NCBI GenBank assembly: GCA_022704585.1
Contig: JAKJGD010000052.1
Span: 1 to 8,833, forward strand
Origin: Spirochaetota bacterium
GTDB taxonomy: Bacteria > Spirochaetota > UBA4802 > UBA5550
Length of the DNA: 8,833 nt
Direction: 5' to 3'
Below the pieces are notes generated by a model that searched no databases, had not been told where the DNA came from, and was given only the letters and a program-made list of their open reading frames with translations. The translations under genes and the position numbers were made by a program. Shown one piece after another: positions 1,921 to 8,833 of the stretch. Position 1 is the stretch's first letter, and the number at the start of each line of letters is the position of its first letter.

Positions 1921-1926
1921 AAGGAG
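1921..1926 (+). promoter_or_regulatory. Ribosome binding site AAGGAG deciding the start at 1932
   Basis: AAGGAG lies five bases before ATG 1932. An in-frame GTG at 1926 overlaps this site itself and so cannot be the start; the ATG at 1932 is chosen. Confidence 0.8.
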
Positions 1927-1931
1927 TGGCT

Positions 1932-2411
1932 ATGCTGCTGCACATACTGGATATCGCGAGAATACTCGGGGTAGCTGCGACGTTCTATATCGGCTATTCA
2001 ATCGGTTTCGCCGGGGACTATGACCCGATAGCGCAATTGCACTTCATGGTTCCCGCTGTCATTGTCATTATCGCGGGCATATCTGGCATTGAGGGCCTTG
2101 TACTGGGCGACCGGGCGGCCGCGGCCAAAGGTTACGCTGCCGACGGCAATTACCAGAGGCAATCTTCCTTCGCCCTGTTGTCCTATGCCGCGGTTGCCGT
2201 TTTCGTGCGGGTGAGCGGATGGGGCATCCGCGCCGAGCTGACGATATTCTTCGCATTCATCTTTTTTCTTGTTTTTTCGGGAATCAATCATGCCGCGAGC
2301 GCGGTCAGGGACAGGAATTTCAAATGGCAGAACATCAACCGCCCTTTCATCACTCTCGCATTGATCGCGGGAATGGCCTACCCGGTCATCGAGGCAATGA
2401 AAAGAATATGA
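1932..2411 (+). CDS. Small multi-spanning membrane protein of unknown function
   Basis: The 159-residue product is mostly hydrophobic, with likely membrane helices at about 3-26, 36-58, 79-97, 101-121 and 136-155. The main soluble stretch is a polar loop at about 59-78 (GDRAAAAKGYAADGNYQRQ). It has no cysteine and three histidines (4, 37, 120) near or inside helices, so no obvious redox or metal-binding motif. The overall pattern recalls uncharacterised DUF6790-like small membrane proteins, but I hold that family name only loosely. AAGGAG at 1921-1926 supports the start. It follows the rubredoxin-fused ACAD by 69 bases with no terminator visible between, suggesting one transcript, and converges on the MMPL gene on the other strand. 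Confidence 0.8.
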   Translation: MLLHILDIARILGVAATFYIGYSIGFAGDYDPIAQLHFMVPAVIVIIAGISGIEGLVLGDRAAAAKGYAADGNYQRQSSFALLSYAAVAVFVRVSGWGIRAELTIFFAFIFFLVFSGINHAASAVRDRNFKWQNINRPFITLALIAGMAYPVIEAMKRI

Positions 2412-2412
2412 T

Positions 2413-2439
2413 GTAACCGGGGAATCGCCGCCGGGTTAC
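2413..2439. terminator. Hairpin between two convergent genes (weak terminator candidate)
   Basis: GTAACC (2413-2418) pairs with GGTTAC (2434-2439), extended inward by GG/CC past one bulged G. It lies just after the stop of the membrane-protein gene and before the end of the MMPL gene, where a two-way terminator would be expected. No T run follows on either strand, so the call is weak. Confidence 0.3.
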
Positions 2440-2460
2440 TGCGCCGGATCAGCTCCACCG

Positions 2461-2477
2461 TTCACTATTCACTATTC
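2461..2477. repeat. Short heptamer repeat TTCACTA at the end of the MMPL gene
   Basis: TTCACTA occurs twice head to tail (2461-2467 and 2468-2474) followed by a partial third unit TTC. It overlaps the MMPL stop codon and last codons. It may be simple slippage-derived sequence; a related stretch (ACTATTCACCAT) occurs at 369-380. Confidence 0.4.
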
Positions 2478-5392
2478 TCTGTTAACCGCTTTCCCCCCGG
2501 CCACCAGTTCCACCGGCCCAGCAGAACCACGATCGAGGGCACGAGTATCGTGCGCGTGATGAACGTATCCTGAAGAACGCCGACGGTGATGGCGAAGCTC
2601 AGTTGCACCAGCCCCAGGAGCGATGACGACATCATGGCCGCGAACGTTCCCGCCATGATGATGCCTGCGGACGTGATGATGCCTCCGGTGTGCAGCACGG
2701 CGAGCCGCACGCCCTTCCGCGTGCCGTGAACGGCCGCCTCCTCGCGCACCCGCCCCATGAGGAATATGTTGTAGTCCATGCCGAGCGCCAGGAGAAGAAC
2801 GAACATGAAGAACGGCACGAACCAGGCGATCTCCCTGCCCAGGAGGTATTCGAACACGAACCGCATGATGCCCATGCACGCGTTGTAGCTCAGCAGAATC
2901 GTCCCCAGGAGGTACACGGGCGCCACCACGCTGCGCAGCAGGAACACGAGCACTATCATGATACCGCCGCAGACCAGGAGCCACATGAGCACTGTGTCGC
3001 GCTTCATGGCATCGCGCAGGTCGGCAAGAACGGGGATGTTCCCGCCCACGTGAAACGTGTCGCTCATCTTCATGTTCCGGATCCTCCTCACGGTATCCAT
3101 GGCCGCGGGAGAAAACGGCTCGTCCCTGAGCAATAGCTGGTAGCGCACCGCGTCGCCTTCGAGCGTCGTGTAGGTGTCCAGGAGCATCATCAGGGCGCCC
3201 CCGCCCGGAAGCCGGGCCAGCTCGACCGGCGCGTAATACCCGTCCGGGCGGCCGGCGAACTTCACCGACAGGCCCCGCACCGATCCCTCGAATGACCGCA
3301 GGTCGGTCAGGATCGGCATGATGATATAGCTGAGCTCCGGCGGCACGACCGGGGGAACGTACACGGTGGCGGCGAGCTTCATCTCCGCCTCTTTCGTCAG
3401 GCGGTGGAGGTTGTCGGAGAGCTCCGACCGGAGGCCCTGCAGCTCGACGTACTGTAATATCATCAGGACGAGACGCGTCACCGCGGGCATCTTCCCGTAG
3501 GCGGCGAATTTCCCGTGGAGCCCGTCGAGCGCGGACATCGTGCCGGCGTACCCGTCCATCCCCTGTATCTGCGGCGCGACCCGCTCCAGCCCGGCGAAAT
3601 ACTGCCGCAGCATCTCGAGCTTCGGCAGGATGATCTCGGGATCGGTCCCCTTCATGTCGTTCATGATCCTGCCGATCTCGGCCAGCTGCGCCGGGACTTT
3701 AATGAGATGCGATGAGGAATCATACCGCTCCCGCACCCGCTGCAGCGCGGCCATGGCGCCGATATAATCGGGGTCCGACGCGAGCCACGGGAAAGCGCCG
3801 GCCAGGCCGGCGAAATAATCATGCAGCACCGCGAACATGCCGTCCGCGTTGTATATGAACGCTTTCAATTTGGGCGGGTCGCTCACCGCGGCGCCGATCG
3901 CGTCCACCTGGACCGCCAGCTGGGCCAGCTGAAAATCGACGCGCAGTACCCGGGAGGTGAACGCGTCGGGCTTGCCCGTCGGGCTGGTAAGGCTCCGCAC
4001 CCCGGTCACGCCGGGTATGCTGCGCAGATACTCCGTGGTCCGCGTTATCTTCCCGATGCCTTCCGGTGTGCGCGTGTCCCGCAGCCCGGTCACCAGCACG
4101 TCCACCGGCAGCATCTCGCCCACGCCGAATTTCTCGGCGAGTATATTGTAGCCGACCCGCACCATGTTATTTTTCGGGAGGTCCGCCAGCATGTCGAAGG
4201 TCTGCTTCTGGCCCTGGCCGTAGATCGCGAGCGGCGCCATCACCAGGAGCGACAGCACGAGGAAGGCCCAGGGCATGCGCGTGATCCAGCCGCCCAGCCG
4301 CCCCCACATCGTCGCCTCGTGCGCATGCTTTGGCCTGCCGGGCCAGAACGCGCGCCTGCCGATGATCGCGAGCATGGCGGGGGTGAGCGTCATGACCGCG
4401 CAGAGCGCGATCACCAGCGCGATCGCAAGGCTCGGGCCGGTGCTGGAGAACAGCTTCACGGACACGAAGCTCAGCGCTATGTCCGCCACGATCAGCGTGC
4501 CCGCACTGCTCGTGATCGTCTCGCCGACGCGCGCCATCGTGCTGGCCGCGGCGTCTTTCCCGGGCATGCCGTCGGCCATGTGCTCCTTGAACCTGCTGAT
4601 GATGAAGAGGCAGTAATCCGTGCCCGCGCCGAAGAGGAGCACCACCATGAACAGGTCGGTCATCGACGATATGACCAGGCCCTGCTGCGCGAGCCACGCG
4701 ACGATGCCGCGCGCTATCCCGTACGCCACGCCTATGATGACCAGGGGGACGAACGGCAGGATCGGGGAGCGGTATATCAGAAGCAGGCAGACGATGACCA
4801 GCCCGATCGTGATGACAATCGTTTTTTCCGCGCTTTCCAGAATGCATTGTTTGTAGGCATTGGTAATGGGCACGTCCCCGGTGACATACCCCCGGTACCC
4901 GGCGGGCATGGCGGCCATGTGCCTCATGATGGTGTCCATGGTCTTCTCAACGGCCTTGTCGTCCGGAGCCCCGTTGATGCCCGCAAAGATGATGGCCACG
5001 CGCCCGTCAGGGCTTATCAGCCGGTCCGTGAGGTTGGGGTCCTCGGGAGACAGCAGGTTCTCTGAAATTTTGGGGTCCTTGAGCGATCGCACCCAGCCGG
5101 TCAGTTCGCCGATGGCGGCCGCCCCTTCCGTGCTTTTCAGCGAACCCCTGTTCGATTCCAGCACGAGGATCGCGGAATTGGAAAAGACCTCTTTGGGAAA
5201 ATTTTTCCTGATCAGCTTCTGGGCCTGGATGCTGGGCTCCTTCGCGCTTAAATAGGCCGACTGGTCCGATATGCTCAGCTCGGACAGGTTCGGCGCAAGC
5301 CAGGTTATCACGCCCACGGCGACAAGCCAGAACGCGATAACCGCGTACCGGTACCGTACTGAATAGTGCCCGATTTTTTCAAATATGCCCAT
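2465..5392 (-). CDS. MMPL-family RND transporter (lipid/hydrophobe exporter)
   Basis: The 975-residue product is an inner-membrane, proton-driven exporter of the MMPL branch of the RND superfamily, which moves lipids or other hydrophobic molecules outward. Topology is the family's two-fold pattern: helix 1 (about 14-34), an external domain (35-190), helices 2-6 (about 191-345), helix 7 (372-392), a large second external domain (393-799), and helices 8-12 (about 800-955). The Asp-Tyr pairs of the proton relay are present in both halves: G-T-D-Y with Asp259/Tyr260 and G-M-D-Y with Asp873/Tyr874. The second external domain, about 400 residues, contains an imperfect internal duplication (526-557 and 598-629). 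The ATG at 5390-5392 follows AAGGG (5402-5406, spacing nine); a nearer AGAGGA is only one base away. No convincing promoter is visible; ATGACA/TCTATT in the 5415-5450 area is weak. The TetR gene upstream in the same direction is a plausible regulator. Substrate is unknown; a hopanoid, fatty acid or other lipid would fit the neighbourhood. Confidence 0.93.
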   Translation of the reverse strand: MGIFEKIGHYSVRYRYAVIAFWLVAVGVITWLAPNLSELSISDQSAYLSAKEPSIQAQKLIRKNFPKEVFSNSAILVLESNRGSLKSTEGAAAIGELTGWVRSLKDPKISENLLSPEDPNLTDRLISPDGRVAIIFAGINGAPDDKAVEKTMDTIMRHMAAMPAGYRGYVTGDVPITNAYKQCILESAEKTIVITIGLVIVCLLLIYRSPILPFVPLVIIGVAYGIARGIVAWLAQQGLVISSMTDLFMVVLLFGAGTDYCLFIISRFKEHMADGMPGKDAAASTMARVGETITSSAGTLIVADIALSFVSVKLFSSTGPSLAIALVIALCAVMTLTPAMLAIIGRRAFWPGRPKHAHEATMWGRLGGWITRMPWAFLVLSLLVMAPLAIYGQGQKQTFDMLADLPKNNMVRVGYNILAEKFGVGEMLPVDVLVTGLRDTRTPEGIGKITRTTEYLRSIPGVTGVRSLTSPTGKPDAFTSRVLRVDFQLAQLAVQVDAIGAAVSDPPKLKAFIYNADGMFAVLHDYFAGLAGAFPWLASDPDYIGAMAALQRVRERYDSSSHLIKVPAQLAEIGRIMNDMKGTDPEIILPKLEMLRQYFAGLERVAPQIQGMDGYAGTMSALDGLHGKFAAYGKMPAVTRLVLMILQYVELQGLRSELSDNLHRLTKEAEMKLAATVYVPPVVPPELSYIIMPILTDLRSFEGSVRGLSVKFAGRPDGYYAPVELARLPGGGALMMLLDTYTTLEGDAVRYQLLLRDEPFSPAAMDTVRRIRNMKMSDTFHVGGNIPVLADLRDAMKRDTVLMWLLVCGGIMIVLVFLLRSVVAPVYLLGTILLSYNACMGIMRFVFEYLLGREIAWFVPFFMFVLLLALGMDYNIFLMGRVREEAAVHGTRKGVRLAVLHTGGIITSAGIIMAGTFAAMMSSSLLGLVQLSFAITVGVLQDTFITRTILVPSIVVLLGRWNWWPGGKRLTENSE

Positions 5393-5639: not shown

Positions 5640-6272
5640 TCAGACCGCCTGCAGTCTTGCCAGCATCAAATCCGACGCAAAATCGAGGAGCTTCTTGTCC
5701 TTCACCTCGCCCAGCTCGTTGCGCTGCATGAAATCCGAAACGGCGAACACGCCGGTCGCAAGCGCCCAGAATGACAGTGCCGTTTCCCTTGGATCGACGT
5801 CGATAAACTCGCCGTCAGTTATGCCTTTCCTGATGATGTTCACGATGTACTCGAGCAGTTCCATGGCCATCCCGTGTATCCTGTCATATACGGCATCGGA
5901 AATCTTTTCACGATCGATGGAACCGGACTGGATCGAGGTCAGGATGGTATAGTAGAGCCGGTGCTCGGTGTAAAATGAATAGAACGCTTCGATCAGGTTG
6001 AGGGTTTGTTTTGTCGCGCTCAACACCGGGTTGGTCGCTCTTTTAAAAAATTCGTGAAAGAGCTGCGCGCCCTCCTCGACAAGGGACACGTACAGCTCTT
6101 CCTTGCTTTTGAAATACAGGTACAGGGTGCCCTTGCTCAGCTCCGCTTTATTGGCTATCTCTTCCATCGTGGCCGCTTCCAGGCCCTTTGAGATAAACAC
6201 CCCTTTTGCGACCTCAAGGATGTCCTTTCTGCGTTTTATCTTTTCATTAATTTTTCTTTGTTGCGTTCCCAT
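5640..6272 (-). CDS. TetR-family transcriptional regulator
   Basis: The 210-residue product is a one-component repressor-type regulator. Residues about 13-60 form the TetR DNA-binding domain: a first helix (RRKDILEVAKGVFISKG), then the helix-turn-helix at about 35-54 with the signature S-K-G-T-L-Y-L-Y-F and the following K-S-K-E-E-L. The remaining 150 residues are helical and hydrophobic enough to hold a ligand pocket and dimer interface, with no diagnostic ligand motif. Length is normal for the family. The ATG at 6270-6272 has only a weak GGGG six bases upstream, giving a short leader of about 14 bases from the predicted start of transcription. A promoter with a perfect inverted repeat across it lies directly upstream, indicating autoregulation. 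Neighbours (MMPL exporter downstream, ACADs upstream) suggest it senses a fatty acyl-CoA or another hydrophobic ligand; this is inference. A 7-bp hairpin (5625-5643) overlaps its stop codon. Confidence 0.95.
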   Translation of the reverse strand: MGTQQRKINEKIKRRKDILEVAKGVFISKGLEAATMEEIANKAELSKGTLYLYFKSKEELYVSLVEEGAQLFHEFFKRATNPVLSATKQTLNLIEAFYSFYTEHRLYYTILTSIQSGSIDREKISDAVYDRIHGMAMELLEYIVNIIRKGITDGEFIDVDPRETALSFWALATGVFAVSDFMQRNELGEVKDKKLLDFASDLMLARLQAV

Positions 6273-6609: not shown

Positions 6610-7962
6610 TCAACCGGTGAACAAAGATTCCTTGTTAATCATAAAATCCGTCCCCGACTGGTGCTCGAACAGCGCCAGCCGGTTGATCTGGTTTGTCCCC
6701 TCGTAAATCTGAGTGAGCCGCGAATCGCGCCAGGCGCGCTCCACACCGTGCGCGTGCAGGCAGCCCGCGTCGCCCATGAGCTCCATGGCCTGGCCGCATA
6801 CCCTGAACGCCGTGTCCGAGGCGAACACCTTTGCCGACGCGGACGCGGACTGGTAGCACCGGAACTGGCGGCAGCTCTGCCAGACCATGGAGCGCGCGGC
6901 CCAGAGGCTTATCGCCATGTCCGCGAGCTCCATCTGCACGTCCTGGTATTCGATGAGCTTCCTTGGGCCCAGGTTTGTGCGCCGGCAGAACTCCAGGCAC
7001 CGCTCGAACGCGCCGCGGCCGTGCCCCAGCGCCATGGCCCCGACCACGGGCCGCGAGTAGTTCAGCACGTTGCGGTTGTTGGGCCATCCCGACCGCACCC
7101 TGCCCACCACGTTCTTCTTTGGCACGAACACGTTGTCGAAAACGAGCTCCGAGGCGTCGGACGCGCGTTGTCCCATCTTGCGCTCGCTCCTTCCCACGGA
7201 GAAGCCTTTCATGCCCTTCTCGACAAGGAAGCAGGTCCACGACTCGATCCCCTCGCCCTCGATTTTCGCGTACACGGTCACTTTGTCAGCTATGGCGCCG
7301 TCCGAGATGAAGCACTTCCGCCCGTTCAGGACATAGCCGCCCATGCCGGGCATGTATTTAGCCGTGGTGACCAGGCGCGCGGCAGCTCCGCCCGCGGTCT
7401 CCTCCGCGTCCGATCCGGCTTCCGGCTCGGTGATGGCAAAGGCCATGCACCCGGGCCTGCCCAGGACACGCGACCCCAGGTAAAAGGGGATGAAGTGCCG
7501 TACCATGACGCGGAGGCTTCCGGAGAGGAGCAGGGGCACGATCCCCAGGTTATGGGCGAGCAGGAGCAGGGCCAGGCCCCCGCACTCGGTCGCGAGCTCC
7601 TCGCCCACGACCGCGACCTGGAGCGCGGCGCCCCCCAGGTAGGGGCGCAGGCTCGCGCTGCCCAAGGGCCACGGCGCGAGGAGCGTCTGGAATCCCTCCC
7701 GCGCCGCTGCCGCGAGCAGCGGCTTCGGGTCGTACTCATGCGGATGGAGGTCCGCCTCCGGAGCGAGCGGGCGTATATGCTCTTGCGCAAACCGGCGCGC
7801 CTTCCTCCGCCAGCGGCGCGCGCCCCGCGGGAGGGTCAGGGTGTCGTGCTCCCACAGGCTCATGTCGCGGTTATCGACCAGGAGCCGGCCTATCAGGTTC
7901 ATCCGGCCCGTCGCGTTTTTCATGGCAAGCTGCTCAATCCGTTCCCGCGTTGACTGGTTCAT
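6610..7962 (-). CDS. Acyl-CoA dehydrogenase, catalytic-type subunit
   Basis: The 450-residue product is an FAD-dependent acyl-CoA dehydrogenase catalysing alpha,beta-desaturation of an acyl-CoA thioester. Visible family motifs: F-A-I-T-E-P-E-A-G-S-D (175-185, flavin and substrate loop), K-C-F-I-S (216-220), Y-x-R-P-x-x-G-A-M-A-L-G (302-313), I-E-Y-Q-D-V-Q-x-E-L-A-D-M (337-349), and I-Y-E-G-T-N-Q with catalytic Glu421. It is longer than the usual 380 residues because of a basic N-terminal extension of about 45 residues and a longer tail. The start at 7960-7962 is supported by GGGGAG eight bases upstream and by a four-base ATGA overlap with the stop of the preceding ACAD-like gene, which implies translational coupling and suggests the two proteins form one complex. 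The frame stays open 78 codons further upstream, but that stretch is arginine-rich shadow of the neighbour. Substrate class is not readable. Confidence 0.93.
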   Translation of the reverse strand: MNQSTRERIEQLAMKNATGRMNLIGRLLVDNRDMSLWEHDTLTLPRGARRWRRKARRFAQEHIRPLAPEADLHPHEYDPKPLLAAAAREGFQTLLAPWPLGSASLRPYLGGAALQVAVVGEELATECGGLALLLLAHNLGIVPLLLSGSLRVMVRHFIPFYLGSRVLGRPGCMAFAITEPEAGSDAEETAGGAAARLVTTAKYMPGMGGYVLNGRKCFISDGAIADKVTVYAKIEGEGIESWTCFLVEKGMKGFSVGRSERKMGQRASDASELVFDNVFVPKKNVVGRVRSGWPNNRNVLNYSRPVVGAMALGHGRGAFERCLEFCRRTNLGPRKLIEYQDVQMELADMAISLWAARSMVWQSCRQFRCYQSASASAKVFASDTAFRVCGQAMELMGDAGCLHAHGVERAWRDSRLTQIYEGTNQINRLALFEHQSGTDFMINKESLFTG

Positions 7963-8833
7963 GATGCATACTCCCCGGTGAGATCGAAGAACATCTGCTT
8001 GAGGTATGCCGGCGGCCCGCACGCGGTCCTGAGCACCATGACGTCGCGGAGCCGCTTCTCCATGCCGAAGTCCTCCATGTACCCGTACCCGCCCAATACC
8101 TGCATCGAATCCGTCACGGCGCGGGCGGCCAGCTCCGTTGCCGCGAGCTTCGCCGCTGCCGCACGCGCGAGCGCGCCGCGCGATCCGATGGCGCAATCCG
8201 CGAGCGCCATGACCGCGGCTTCCGCGGAGCGGGCCGCGGCATCGGCCCCGGCGATGAGCATCTTCACTGCCGGGTGCTTTTCGATGAGCGAGCCGCCCTG
8301 GTACCGCTCCGACGCGTACGCGCGCGCGGCCGCAACCGAGCCCCGCGCGATCCCGACCGCAATGGCAGACATGCCTGACCAGTTCAGGAAGAGCGCGCGC
8401 GACACGAGCTCTTCCGCGTCGCCGCCGTCGATGCGCGCTTCCCGGGGCAGCTCAACGCCGTCAAACGCGACATGGTCCAGGCGGCAGGCGCGCAGGCCCG
8501 TGCGTGCGCCGGCGTCTGTGACCGTGATCCCGCCCTGCCCGGCGGGAGCCAGGAAACAGGCCCACCTGTCTTTCGCCCGGGTGAAAACGACAAACGCGCC
8601 CGCGCCTTCCATCGAATAGGAAAAGGATTTCGCGCCCCGGATCACGTACCCGCCGCGCTCCTCGGCCGCGGTTGTCTCGATCCTCGCCGGAGCGTCCTCG
8701 CCCGGCCTGGCGAGCACTCCCGCGTGGGGAGGATACGGCCCTTCCTGCAGGCAGAGGCGCACGCGCGCGGGCGCGGGCCCGCCCTTCGCCCGCAGGGCGA
8801 TGGCGGACGCGACGCCCTGGCTGTGCAGGCACA
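7959..8833 (-). CDS. Non-canonical acyl-CoA dehydrogenase-like subunit (5' end outside window)
   Basis: The C-terminal 290 residues are visible; the start lies beyond the right edge. The fold is that of acyl-CoA dehydrogenases: a middle beta domain (G-Y-V-I-R-G-A-K-S-F-S-Y-S at the strand that normally reads GTKxWIT), an E-R-Y-Q-G-G-S-L-I-E-K-H helix, and the conserved L-G-G-Y-G-Y-M-E-D turn followed by E-K-R-L-R-D-V. Three key features are altered. The I-Y-E-G catalytic motif reads T-A-C-G, placing Cys (codon 8019-8021, 20th residue from the end) where the base Glu should be. The helix that carries the alternative Glu in isovaleryl- and long-chain enzymes reads L-F-L-N-W-S. The T-E-P-x-x-G-S-D loop is not recognisable. 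The frame is intact and codon use normal, so decay is unlikely. Its stop overlaps the next ACAD start by ATGA, pointing to a heteromeric enzyme in which this subunit is structural or has changed chemistry (inference). Confidence 0.88.
   Translation of the reverse strand, partial: CLHSQGVASAIALRAKGGPAPARVRLCLQEGPYPPHAGVLARPGEDAPARIETTAAEERGGYVIRGAKSFSYSMEGAGAFVVFTRAKDRWACFLAPAGQGGITVTDAGARTGLRACRLDHVAFDGVELPREARIDGGDAEELVSRALFLNWSGMSAIAVGIARGSVAAARAYASERYQGGSLIEKHPAVKMLIAGADAAARSAEAAVMALADCAIGSRGALARAAAAKLAATELAARAVTDSMQVLGGYGYMEDFGMEKRLRDVMVLRTACGPPAYLKQMFFDLTGEYAS
7971..7976 (-). promoter_or_regulatory. Ribosome binding site GGGGAG within the upstream ACAD-like gene
   Basis: On the minus strand GGGGAG stands eight bases before the ATG at 7962. 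It lies inside the last codons of the upstream gene, as expected for coupled translation, and rules out the longer upstream open frame as the true start. Confidence 0.75.

Follow-up and report, generated by a model that had tools for sequence, protein, structure and literature searches.

We analyzed positions 1 to 8,833 of contig JAKJGD010000052.1 from a Spirochaetota bacterium (assembly GCA_022704585.1); this whole stretch of 8,833 nucleotides is referred to as the window. Near its end, two overlapping genes on the reverse strand encode relatives of acyl-CoA dehydrogenases (ACADs), here named beta and alpha in order of transcription. In our judgment the two genes quite probably specify the subunits of an obligate heteromeric ACAD, most likely an alpha2beta2 assembly with two flavin adenine dinucleotide (FAD) molecules and two active sites, because they are adjacent, co-occur across genomes, and reciprocally lack one half of the FAD site. 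A preliminary description of this DNA had proposed a heteromeric desaturase; adjacency, co-occurrence and reciprocal loss sustain the proposal at the level of sequence, from which the complex itself is a prediction. In fold and chemical principle the pair is ordinary; it is unusual in adding to the known split ACADs a second kind that is widespread and seems to have evolved separately.

Of beta, the last 290 of approximately 395 residues are visible in the window, and full-length homologues mostly have about 393 residues. The relative P0001 (395 amino acids), given as 100% identical although one difference (G285 to V) can be seen, supplies the missing N-terminus, and its numbering is used for beta throughout. 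Beta reaches the curated Pfam cut-offs for the ACAD middle and C-terminal domains (PF02770 and PF00441), as alpha does for both domains; among the NCBIfam models listed, none reached its cut-off for either protein. The TEPxxGSD flavin loop is absent from beta (LCLQEGPYPPHAGVL), and the visible C-terminal stretch (...EKRLRDVMVLRTACGPPAYLKQ...) carries a Cys at the position of the catalytic Glu376 of medium-chain acyl-CoA dehydrogenase (MCAD). At the alternative site of the isovaleryl-CoA dehydrogenase (IVD) type, Asn255 is followed by Trp256. The preliminary description had thus read the gene correctly as an ACAD-like protein without catalytic base, with Asn or Trp at the alternative site and no recognizable flavin loop, whose ATGA overlaps an intact ACAD gene; this neighbor carries both the Glu and the flavin loop (Table 1).

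The beta protein search returned 217 matches among 7999 candidates scored, of which 120 were listed; the 110 listed sequences with a length of at least 370 residues were aligned and represent the family here. At the MCAD Glu site, these homologues carry Ser (64), Ala (19), Phe (7), Gly (6), Leu (4), His (4), Cys (3), and Met, Trp or Thr (1 each), but never Glu. At the IVD-type site they carry Asn (94), His (6), Ser (6), Asp (3) or Met (1). Since Glu is absent from all 110 homologues, its absence from the window's beta cannot be put down to one mutation or to an error in sequencing, and orthologues in which Glu is normally present, a case raised in the preliminary description, did not appear. 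Judged by this sample, the missing base is a property of the beta family and the Cys is not; the residue that prompted the finding is incidental.

This distribution bears directly on two other explanations for beta. The preliminary description had pointed to the conservation of the Cys as informative, and had suggested that a Cys subunit may carry out different chemistry or sense a ligand. Although the Cys does occupy the catalytic position in the window's beta, it is scarcely credible that the residue serves a separate enzyme activity, be it as the base or as a nucleophile, or that it makes beta a sensor: only 3 of 110 homologues have the residue, most orthologues carrying Ser, Ala, Phe, Gly, Leu or His instead, and the isoalloxazine loop is likewise lost from beta. 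For the family as a whole, Cys chemistry or sensing was ruled out on this conservation. An even smaller, practically negligible probability attaches to beta being a pseudogene in decay or an artefact of sequencing. It would fit that beta evolves faster than alpha; yet not one stop was found across the 14 beta genes compared, the ratio of nonsynonymous to synonymous substitution rates (dN/dS) is well below 1 in seven of eight comparisons, and the motifs are invariant across 110 beta sequences. On these three grounds, pseudogene and sequencing error were both rejected. In the eight locus pairs compared, purifying selection seems to act on both genes, with greater force on alpha; one of these pairs was too similar, and another too far apart (dS above 2), to count for much.

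The residues that beta lacks are found in alpha, and vice versa. The alpha alignment comprises 117 rows, i.e., 116 of the 120 matches listed (of 7241) and the window's alpha. Throughout these rows the flavin-loop residues T178, E179, P180, G183, S184 and D185 are present, as is Glu421, such that the catalytic Glu occurs in only one subunit (alpha 117/117, beta 0/110). The opposite pattern is found at the positions R281, Q349 and G353, which correspond in position to the MCAD residues that grip the ADP end of the adjacent subunit's FAD. Beta keeps R281, Q349, G352 and G353 in 110/110 sequences, while alpha is without R281, Q349 and G353 in 117/117; the Q349 position in alpha is occupied by Glu (104), Ala (8), Asp (3) or Thr (2), and by Gln in no row. 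A joint alignment of 37 alpha, 40 beta and 24 ordinary ACAD sequences reveals the same division. R281 is kept in 1, 40 and 23 of these, respectively, Q349 in 0, 40 and 22, and G353 in 0, 40 and 22. These alignments point to a shared FAD site, with the isoalloxazine residues located in alpha and the ADP residues in beta.

Table 1. Features of the putative alpha and beta subunit genes in the window (residue numbers of beta follow P0001).
Feature	Position	Strand	Remark
Beta subunit gene, 3' part	7959..8831	-	Open at window edge, stop included; base-less ACAD-like protein
RYQGG motif of beta, R281 to G285, ADP-side FAD Arg	8292..8306	-	R281, Y282, Q283, G284 invariant in 110/110
QVLGGYGY of beta, Q349 to Y356, ADP-side FAD loop	8079..8102	-	Q349, G352, G353 invariant in 110/110
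Cys376 codon of beta, MCAD catalytic Glu position	8019..8021	-	Cys in 3/110, Glu in 0/110 homologues
ATGA, beta stop overlapping alpha start	7959..7962	-	Exact 4-nt overlap
Alpha subunit gene, 450-residue ACAD	6610..7962	-	Catalytic Glu and isoalloxazine loop; ACAD Pfam domains
TEPEAGSD flavin loop of alpha	7408..7431	-	T, E, P, G, S, D each in 117/117
Thr329 of alpha, where beta has R281	6976..6978	-	Arg in 0/117 alpha rows
Alpha ELMGDAG, residues 394 to 400	6763..6783	-	Glu in place of Q349 and Asp398 in place of G353 (Asp in 117/117)
Catalytic Glu421 of alpha	6700..6702	-	117/117 rows

Predicted structures are consistent with an ACAD fold for both proteins. AlphaFold2 returned confident ACAD folds for P0001 as representative of beta (pLDDT 92.7, pTM 0.93) and for P0121, which is 96% identical to the window's alpha (pLDDT 89.1, pTM 0.89). 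The predicted folds match solved ACADs over nearly their whole length. For the alpha model, root-mean-square deviations (rmsd) from ordinary ACADs are 1.8-2.0 over 371-379 residues (best 12 rows), while the beta model fits more loosely, with 2.6-3.4 over 346-362 residues (best 50 rows). Just ordinary ACADs appeared among the best 50 matches of the structure search.

When genome contigs were searched with a profile of the aligned beta sequences, 467 relatives emerged, the best 80 of which were kept as loci. Among these, 33 loci (L001-L033) hold clear members of the beta family; they cover six phyla and all derive from metagenome-assembled genomes (MAGs). Homologous gene pairs, for which the preliminary description had proposed a search, are the rule: alpha directly follows beta in 31 of the 33 close loci. 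The 4-nt overlap seen in the window is possible in 19 of these 31 pairs, nine more have a possible start at -1 to +5 nt, and the remaining three are separated by gaps of 42 or 90 nt. More divergent pairs occur in L034, L035, L045, L058 and L063, partial ones in L037 and L041. In L017, the contig ends 64 nt past beta.

Co-occurrence extends to the level of genomes, where scoring was confined to the 4-12 best candidates in each genome. Among 149 genomes drawn from the order of genome G002, including a Smithella genome, beta (E < 1e-100) was found in six and alpha (E < 1e-230) in the same six. A draw of 395 genomes from the phylum, which has three positive genomes in common with the order draw, revealed beta in seven genomes, alpha in all seven, and a divergent alpha in two further genomes. 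One of the latter two has a divergent beta alongside (L140, E 2.5e-127 with a wider profile) that the first profile had missed. The two subunits diverge closely in parallel, their identity distances being correlated at 0.92 over 37 pairs. In genome G147, a 649-residue open frame (contig C90, 1314-3230) joins an N-terminal part of beta (positions 2-232) to alpha (30-441), and one TAG lies inside the alpha match; the joined frame may be a natural fusion, a deletion or an assembly error.

The mycobacterial steroid ACADs, put forward in the preliminary description as functional analogues, prove to be the right comparison. According to PMC11153573, the alpha subunits of ChsE4-ChsE5 (FadE26-FadE27) and ChsE1-ChsE2 (FadE28-FadE29) bind the isoalloxazine and bear both the Glu and the site for the substrate; contacts with the ADP-ribose come from beta. 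PMC8399759 counts one Glu plus one interface FAD per ChsE heterodimer and adds that the heterotetramer is required for activity. As in these alpha2beta2 enzymes, separate genes here encode a subunit with Glu and isoalloxazine residues and a base-less subunit for the ADP side. CasC of Rhodococcus jostii RHA1 is similar in that, of its two fused ACAD domains, one carries the Glu and the other is needed for FAD (PMC8399759), but it is a fused steroid enzyme whereas the genes here are two. With the homotetrameric short-chain acyl-CoA dehydrogenase (SCAD), MCAD and cyclohexenecarboxyl-CoA dehydrogenase, the pair shares the fold and alpha the active-site motifs; ordinary homotetrameric ACADs, however, hold both halves of the FAD site in each subunit, here reduced to one half per subunit.

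By analogy, the arrangement is best read as working like ChsE4-ChsE5. Alpha and beta would form an FAD-binding dimer that holds a single composite FAD site; only one of the dimer's two possible FAD sites would be functional. Alpha would bind the acyl thioester and perform alpha-proton abstraction and hydride transfer, with beta serving as a catalytically dead subunit for cofactor holding and scaffolding. Electrons would then pass to electron-transferring flavoprotein (ETF) or a similar acceptor.

Several features separate the pair from the steroid enzymes. The Glu is located at the MCAD site here and at the site of long-chain acyl-CoA dehydrogenase (LCAD) and IVD in ChsE, and PMC11153573 describes an LCAD Glu291-type base as common to M. 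tuberculosis ACADs. Alpha has Ser at the LCAD/IVD-type site in 37/37 rows, its Glu standing at the MCAD-type site instead. Beta shows RYQGG and QxFGGYGYMED where the ChsE type has REQF and HVHGG. Unlike for ChsE, the hosts include lineages such as Smithella, and a gene for a protein resembling acetoacetate decarboxylase (ADC) is a frequent neighbor. Among IpdE1-IpdE2 and Scd-type steroid ring ACADs, the short IpdE2 is base-less like beta and keeps R281, F284, Q349 and GG.

In a first, quick tree of 101 rows, one branch separates all 37 alpha sequences from the rest (SH-aLRT 99), and another does so for the 40 beta sequences (SH-aLRT 96). The latter include L049_598, a base-less RYQGG protein labelled beta only after inspection of the tree; before this relabelling, four beta rows had stood separately at a poorly supported root. 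Steroid-type subunits were then added to a more careful tree of 61 rows, from which L049_598 was omitted. PDB sequence searches returned just ordinary ACADs among the best 60 of 81, 105 and 113 matches for beta, its profile and alpha, respectively. Entry 4x28, which we take to be ChsE4-ChsE5 and whose chains the search output labels just as acyl-CoA dehydrogenase, was not among them, an absence that carries no weight by itself, and ChsE-like proteins were therefore sought in a genome with an IpdE2 match. Among the papers listed by a literature search for the code 4x28, none was found to print it, and a legend in PMC11153573 gives 4X08 for ChsE4. All genomes for steroid-type rows were chosen via an IpdE2 search. 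The ChsE4-like and ChsE5-like rows are an adjacent pair in one of them (G198), picked by chains A and D of 4x28 (E 2e-201 and 8e-173); of the other steroid-type betas, two were taken by the IpdE2 cut-off and three by resemblance. In the G198 pair, residues are split between the subunits as in alpha and beta, and the ChsE4-like alpha has the same change of Q349 to Glu.

The careful tree separates alpha (support 100/100) from beta (99/98), and both from a clade of the six steroid-type betas (100/99). Forcing alpha and the ChsE4-like protein into one clade was rejected by the approximately unbiased (AU) test (p 0.0098, with a single ChsE4-like row), while beta and steroid-type beta as one clade gave p 0.27 and was not rejected, the two being separate in the best tree. 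An origin independent of the steroid type is therefore favored for alpha, at a strength weakened by long branches and the single ChsE4-like row.

Several observations weigh against an obligate heteromer. The assembly is predicted here from sequence and from models of single chains, and the placing of R281, Q349 and G353 at the ADP side across the dimer follows MCAD structures and is backed here only by the ChsE literature. Beta's ADP site is evidently not fully canonical because the equivalents of F284 and Q292 are lost: the former position is Gly in 39 of 40 beta rows and the latter Gln in 1 of 40, where ordinary ACADs mostly keep both, and alpha retains Q292 in 28 of 37. G008, the genome of L017, contains no alpha elsewhere at E 1e-60. 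In G007, beta (L010) and alpha are unlinked, alpha being located on another contig of the same MAG, where mis-binning is possible. G147, one of the six order-level co-occurrences, has just the N-terminal part of beta, and G434 has an alpha-like gene (E 8.8e-131) without recognizable beta, its best match to the widened beta profile (5.8e-65) being like that of ordinary ACADs and the stretch partly masked. Relatedness among genomes inflates all counts. Some of these points would suit an arrangement in which alpha alone is an ordinary homo-oligomeric ACAD and beta a regulatory, ligand-sensing or electron-transfer adaptor, i.e., the lone alpha-like gene of G434, the unlinked genes of G007 and the incomplete ADP site, to which may be added that alpha holds all flavin and catalytic residues of its own side. 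We nevertheless regard such an adaptor as unlikely: the three ADP-side residues are gone from every alpha row, with an invariant Asp in place of G353, and every beta sequence keeps them, for which a mere regulator has no need.

Still less probable, and in our view very doubtful, is a reading in which the two genes are orthologous to the ACADs for steroid side chains (FadE26-27, FadE28-29 or IpdE1-E2) and serve steroid degradation. The division of labor and the Glu at the Q349 position of the ChsE4-like alpha are alike, a few pairs have epimerases resembling 3beta-hydroxysteroid dehydrogenase (L034, L009) or thiolase-like PF22691 genes (L005, L035) beside them, and a common clade of the betas is not rejected by the AU test. 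However, the common clade with the ChsE4-like protein was rejected for alpha, the base sits at the MCAD site as opposed to the LCAD/IVD-site Glu of the M. tuberculosis ACADs, 4x28 was missing from the best 60 matches of beta, its profile and alpha, and the steroid-type betas form a clade of their own. Of the kinship with FadE26-FadE29 implied in the preliminary description, the part concerning alpha thus did not hold, given one ChsE4-like row, and the part concerning beta was neither established nor rejected by the same test. The heteromeric enzyme remains our preferred reading.

The pair has a recurrent, unexplained partner in the ADC-like protein. A hidden Markov model built from five seed open reading frames (ORFs), taken from beta-bearing loci, detected it in 29 of 80 loci, i.e., in 29 of the 40 beta-bearing loci (L001-L035, L037, L041, L045, L058 and L063) and in none of the 40 others, among which L049 has a lone beta-like gene. 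Fisher's test gives 9e-13 for this association, a value to be read with loci that are not independent and seeds that stem from beta-bearing loci. All 13 ADC-like proteins tested, from twelve of the 29 loci and from beside the unlinked alpha of G007 (L083), passed the PF06314 cut-off. The gene adjoins the pair in 27 of the 29 loci (with one gene between in L003 and a distance of 5 kb in L001); examples are L024:7334-8125, L034:3309-4112 and L058:8652-9431. A motif [FYL][PT]KF, resembling the surroundings of the Schiff-base Lys of acetoacetate decarboxylase, is present in 27 of 31 ADC-like ORFs. In the window up to position 8833, no ADC-like gene was found.

Other neighbors in some loci are a thiolase-like protein (PF22691), an AMP ligase, a short-chain dehydrogenase/reductase (SDR), an epimerase, a nitroreductase and a thiamine pyrophosphate (TPP) enzyme, an annotation too mixed to yield a firm pathway. 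The thiolase-like, AMP-ligase, SDR and ADC-like neighbors weakly suggest a beta-oxidation-like route for an unusual acyl substrate, perhaps a bulky or branched one. Passages of a paper on limonene (PMC12583861) offer no link to the pair. Upstream of the pair in L012, L014, L015 and L016, we observed an ATPase-like protein of the BadF/BcrA type with 1409-1438 residues and a protein resembling 2-hydroxyacid dehydrogenases, names that both stem from visual inspection of the sequences; L012 has a TPP enzyme too, a relative of which occurs in L016.

Further ACADs were noted along the way. L043 has a different adjacent ACAD pair (1104-2237 and 2279-3427), whose first member shows TEPEAGSD and YEGTNQ without R281, Q349 and G353, which are lost, while the second keeps all three plus a Glu; possibly, this is another split at an earlier stage. 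Beside the unlinked alpha of G007, L083 has an ACAD (2899-4314) with TEPEAGTD and VELMGIDG that is alpha-like at the ADP loop. The window itself encodes an intact ACAD with a C-terminal rubredoxin-like domain (RUBY_RBDX) at 516-1862 on the forward strand, followed by a 161-residue protein (1926-2411, forward strand) without Pfam match at 1e-6; together they may form an electron outlet independent of ETF. Between the two ACAD loci, the reverse strand encodes an MMPL/RND-type exporter (2465-5392) and a TetR-family regulator (5640-6272) resembling FadR/FasR models below cut-off.

A literature search over titles and abstract openings, with the primary ChsE and IpdE papers outside it, found no description of the alpha/beta clade or of its pairing with an ADC-like protein. 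We tentatively entertain, as somewhat less than an even prospect, a broader scenario in which the split of ACADs into catalytic and cofactor-holding subunits took place two or more times. One split, in steroid degraders, would have its base at the LCAD/IVD site; another, independent one, in the lineage studied here, would have it at the MCAD site; and the same Gln-to-Glu loss in the ADP loop would have arisen in either alpha. The split enzyme would here belong to a three-protein module with the Lys-bearing ADC-like protein, serving an undescribed route of dehydrogenation and decarboxylation (or aldol chemistry) in Desulfobacterota, Spirochaetota, Myxococcota, Calditrichota, Chloroflexota and others.

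If the heteromeric reading is true, ACADs with a split FAD site reach beyond steroid catabolism into a wide set of mostly uncultured bacteria, and they would constitute a second natural experiment in which a homomeric flavoenzyme became a catalytic and a non-catalytic subunit. A simple recognition rule would follow: TEPxxGSD, YEGTN and GD in place of GG for the alpha half-enzyme; RxQGG, QxxGGYGYMED and no Glu for the beta half-enzyme. Applied to genomes, this rule could flag as half-enzymes genes that are now named only acyl-CoA dehydrogenase.

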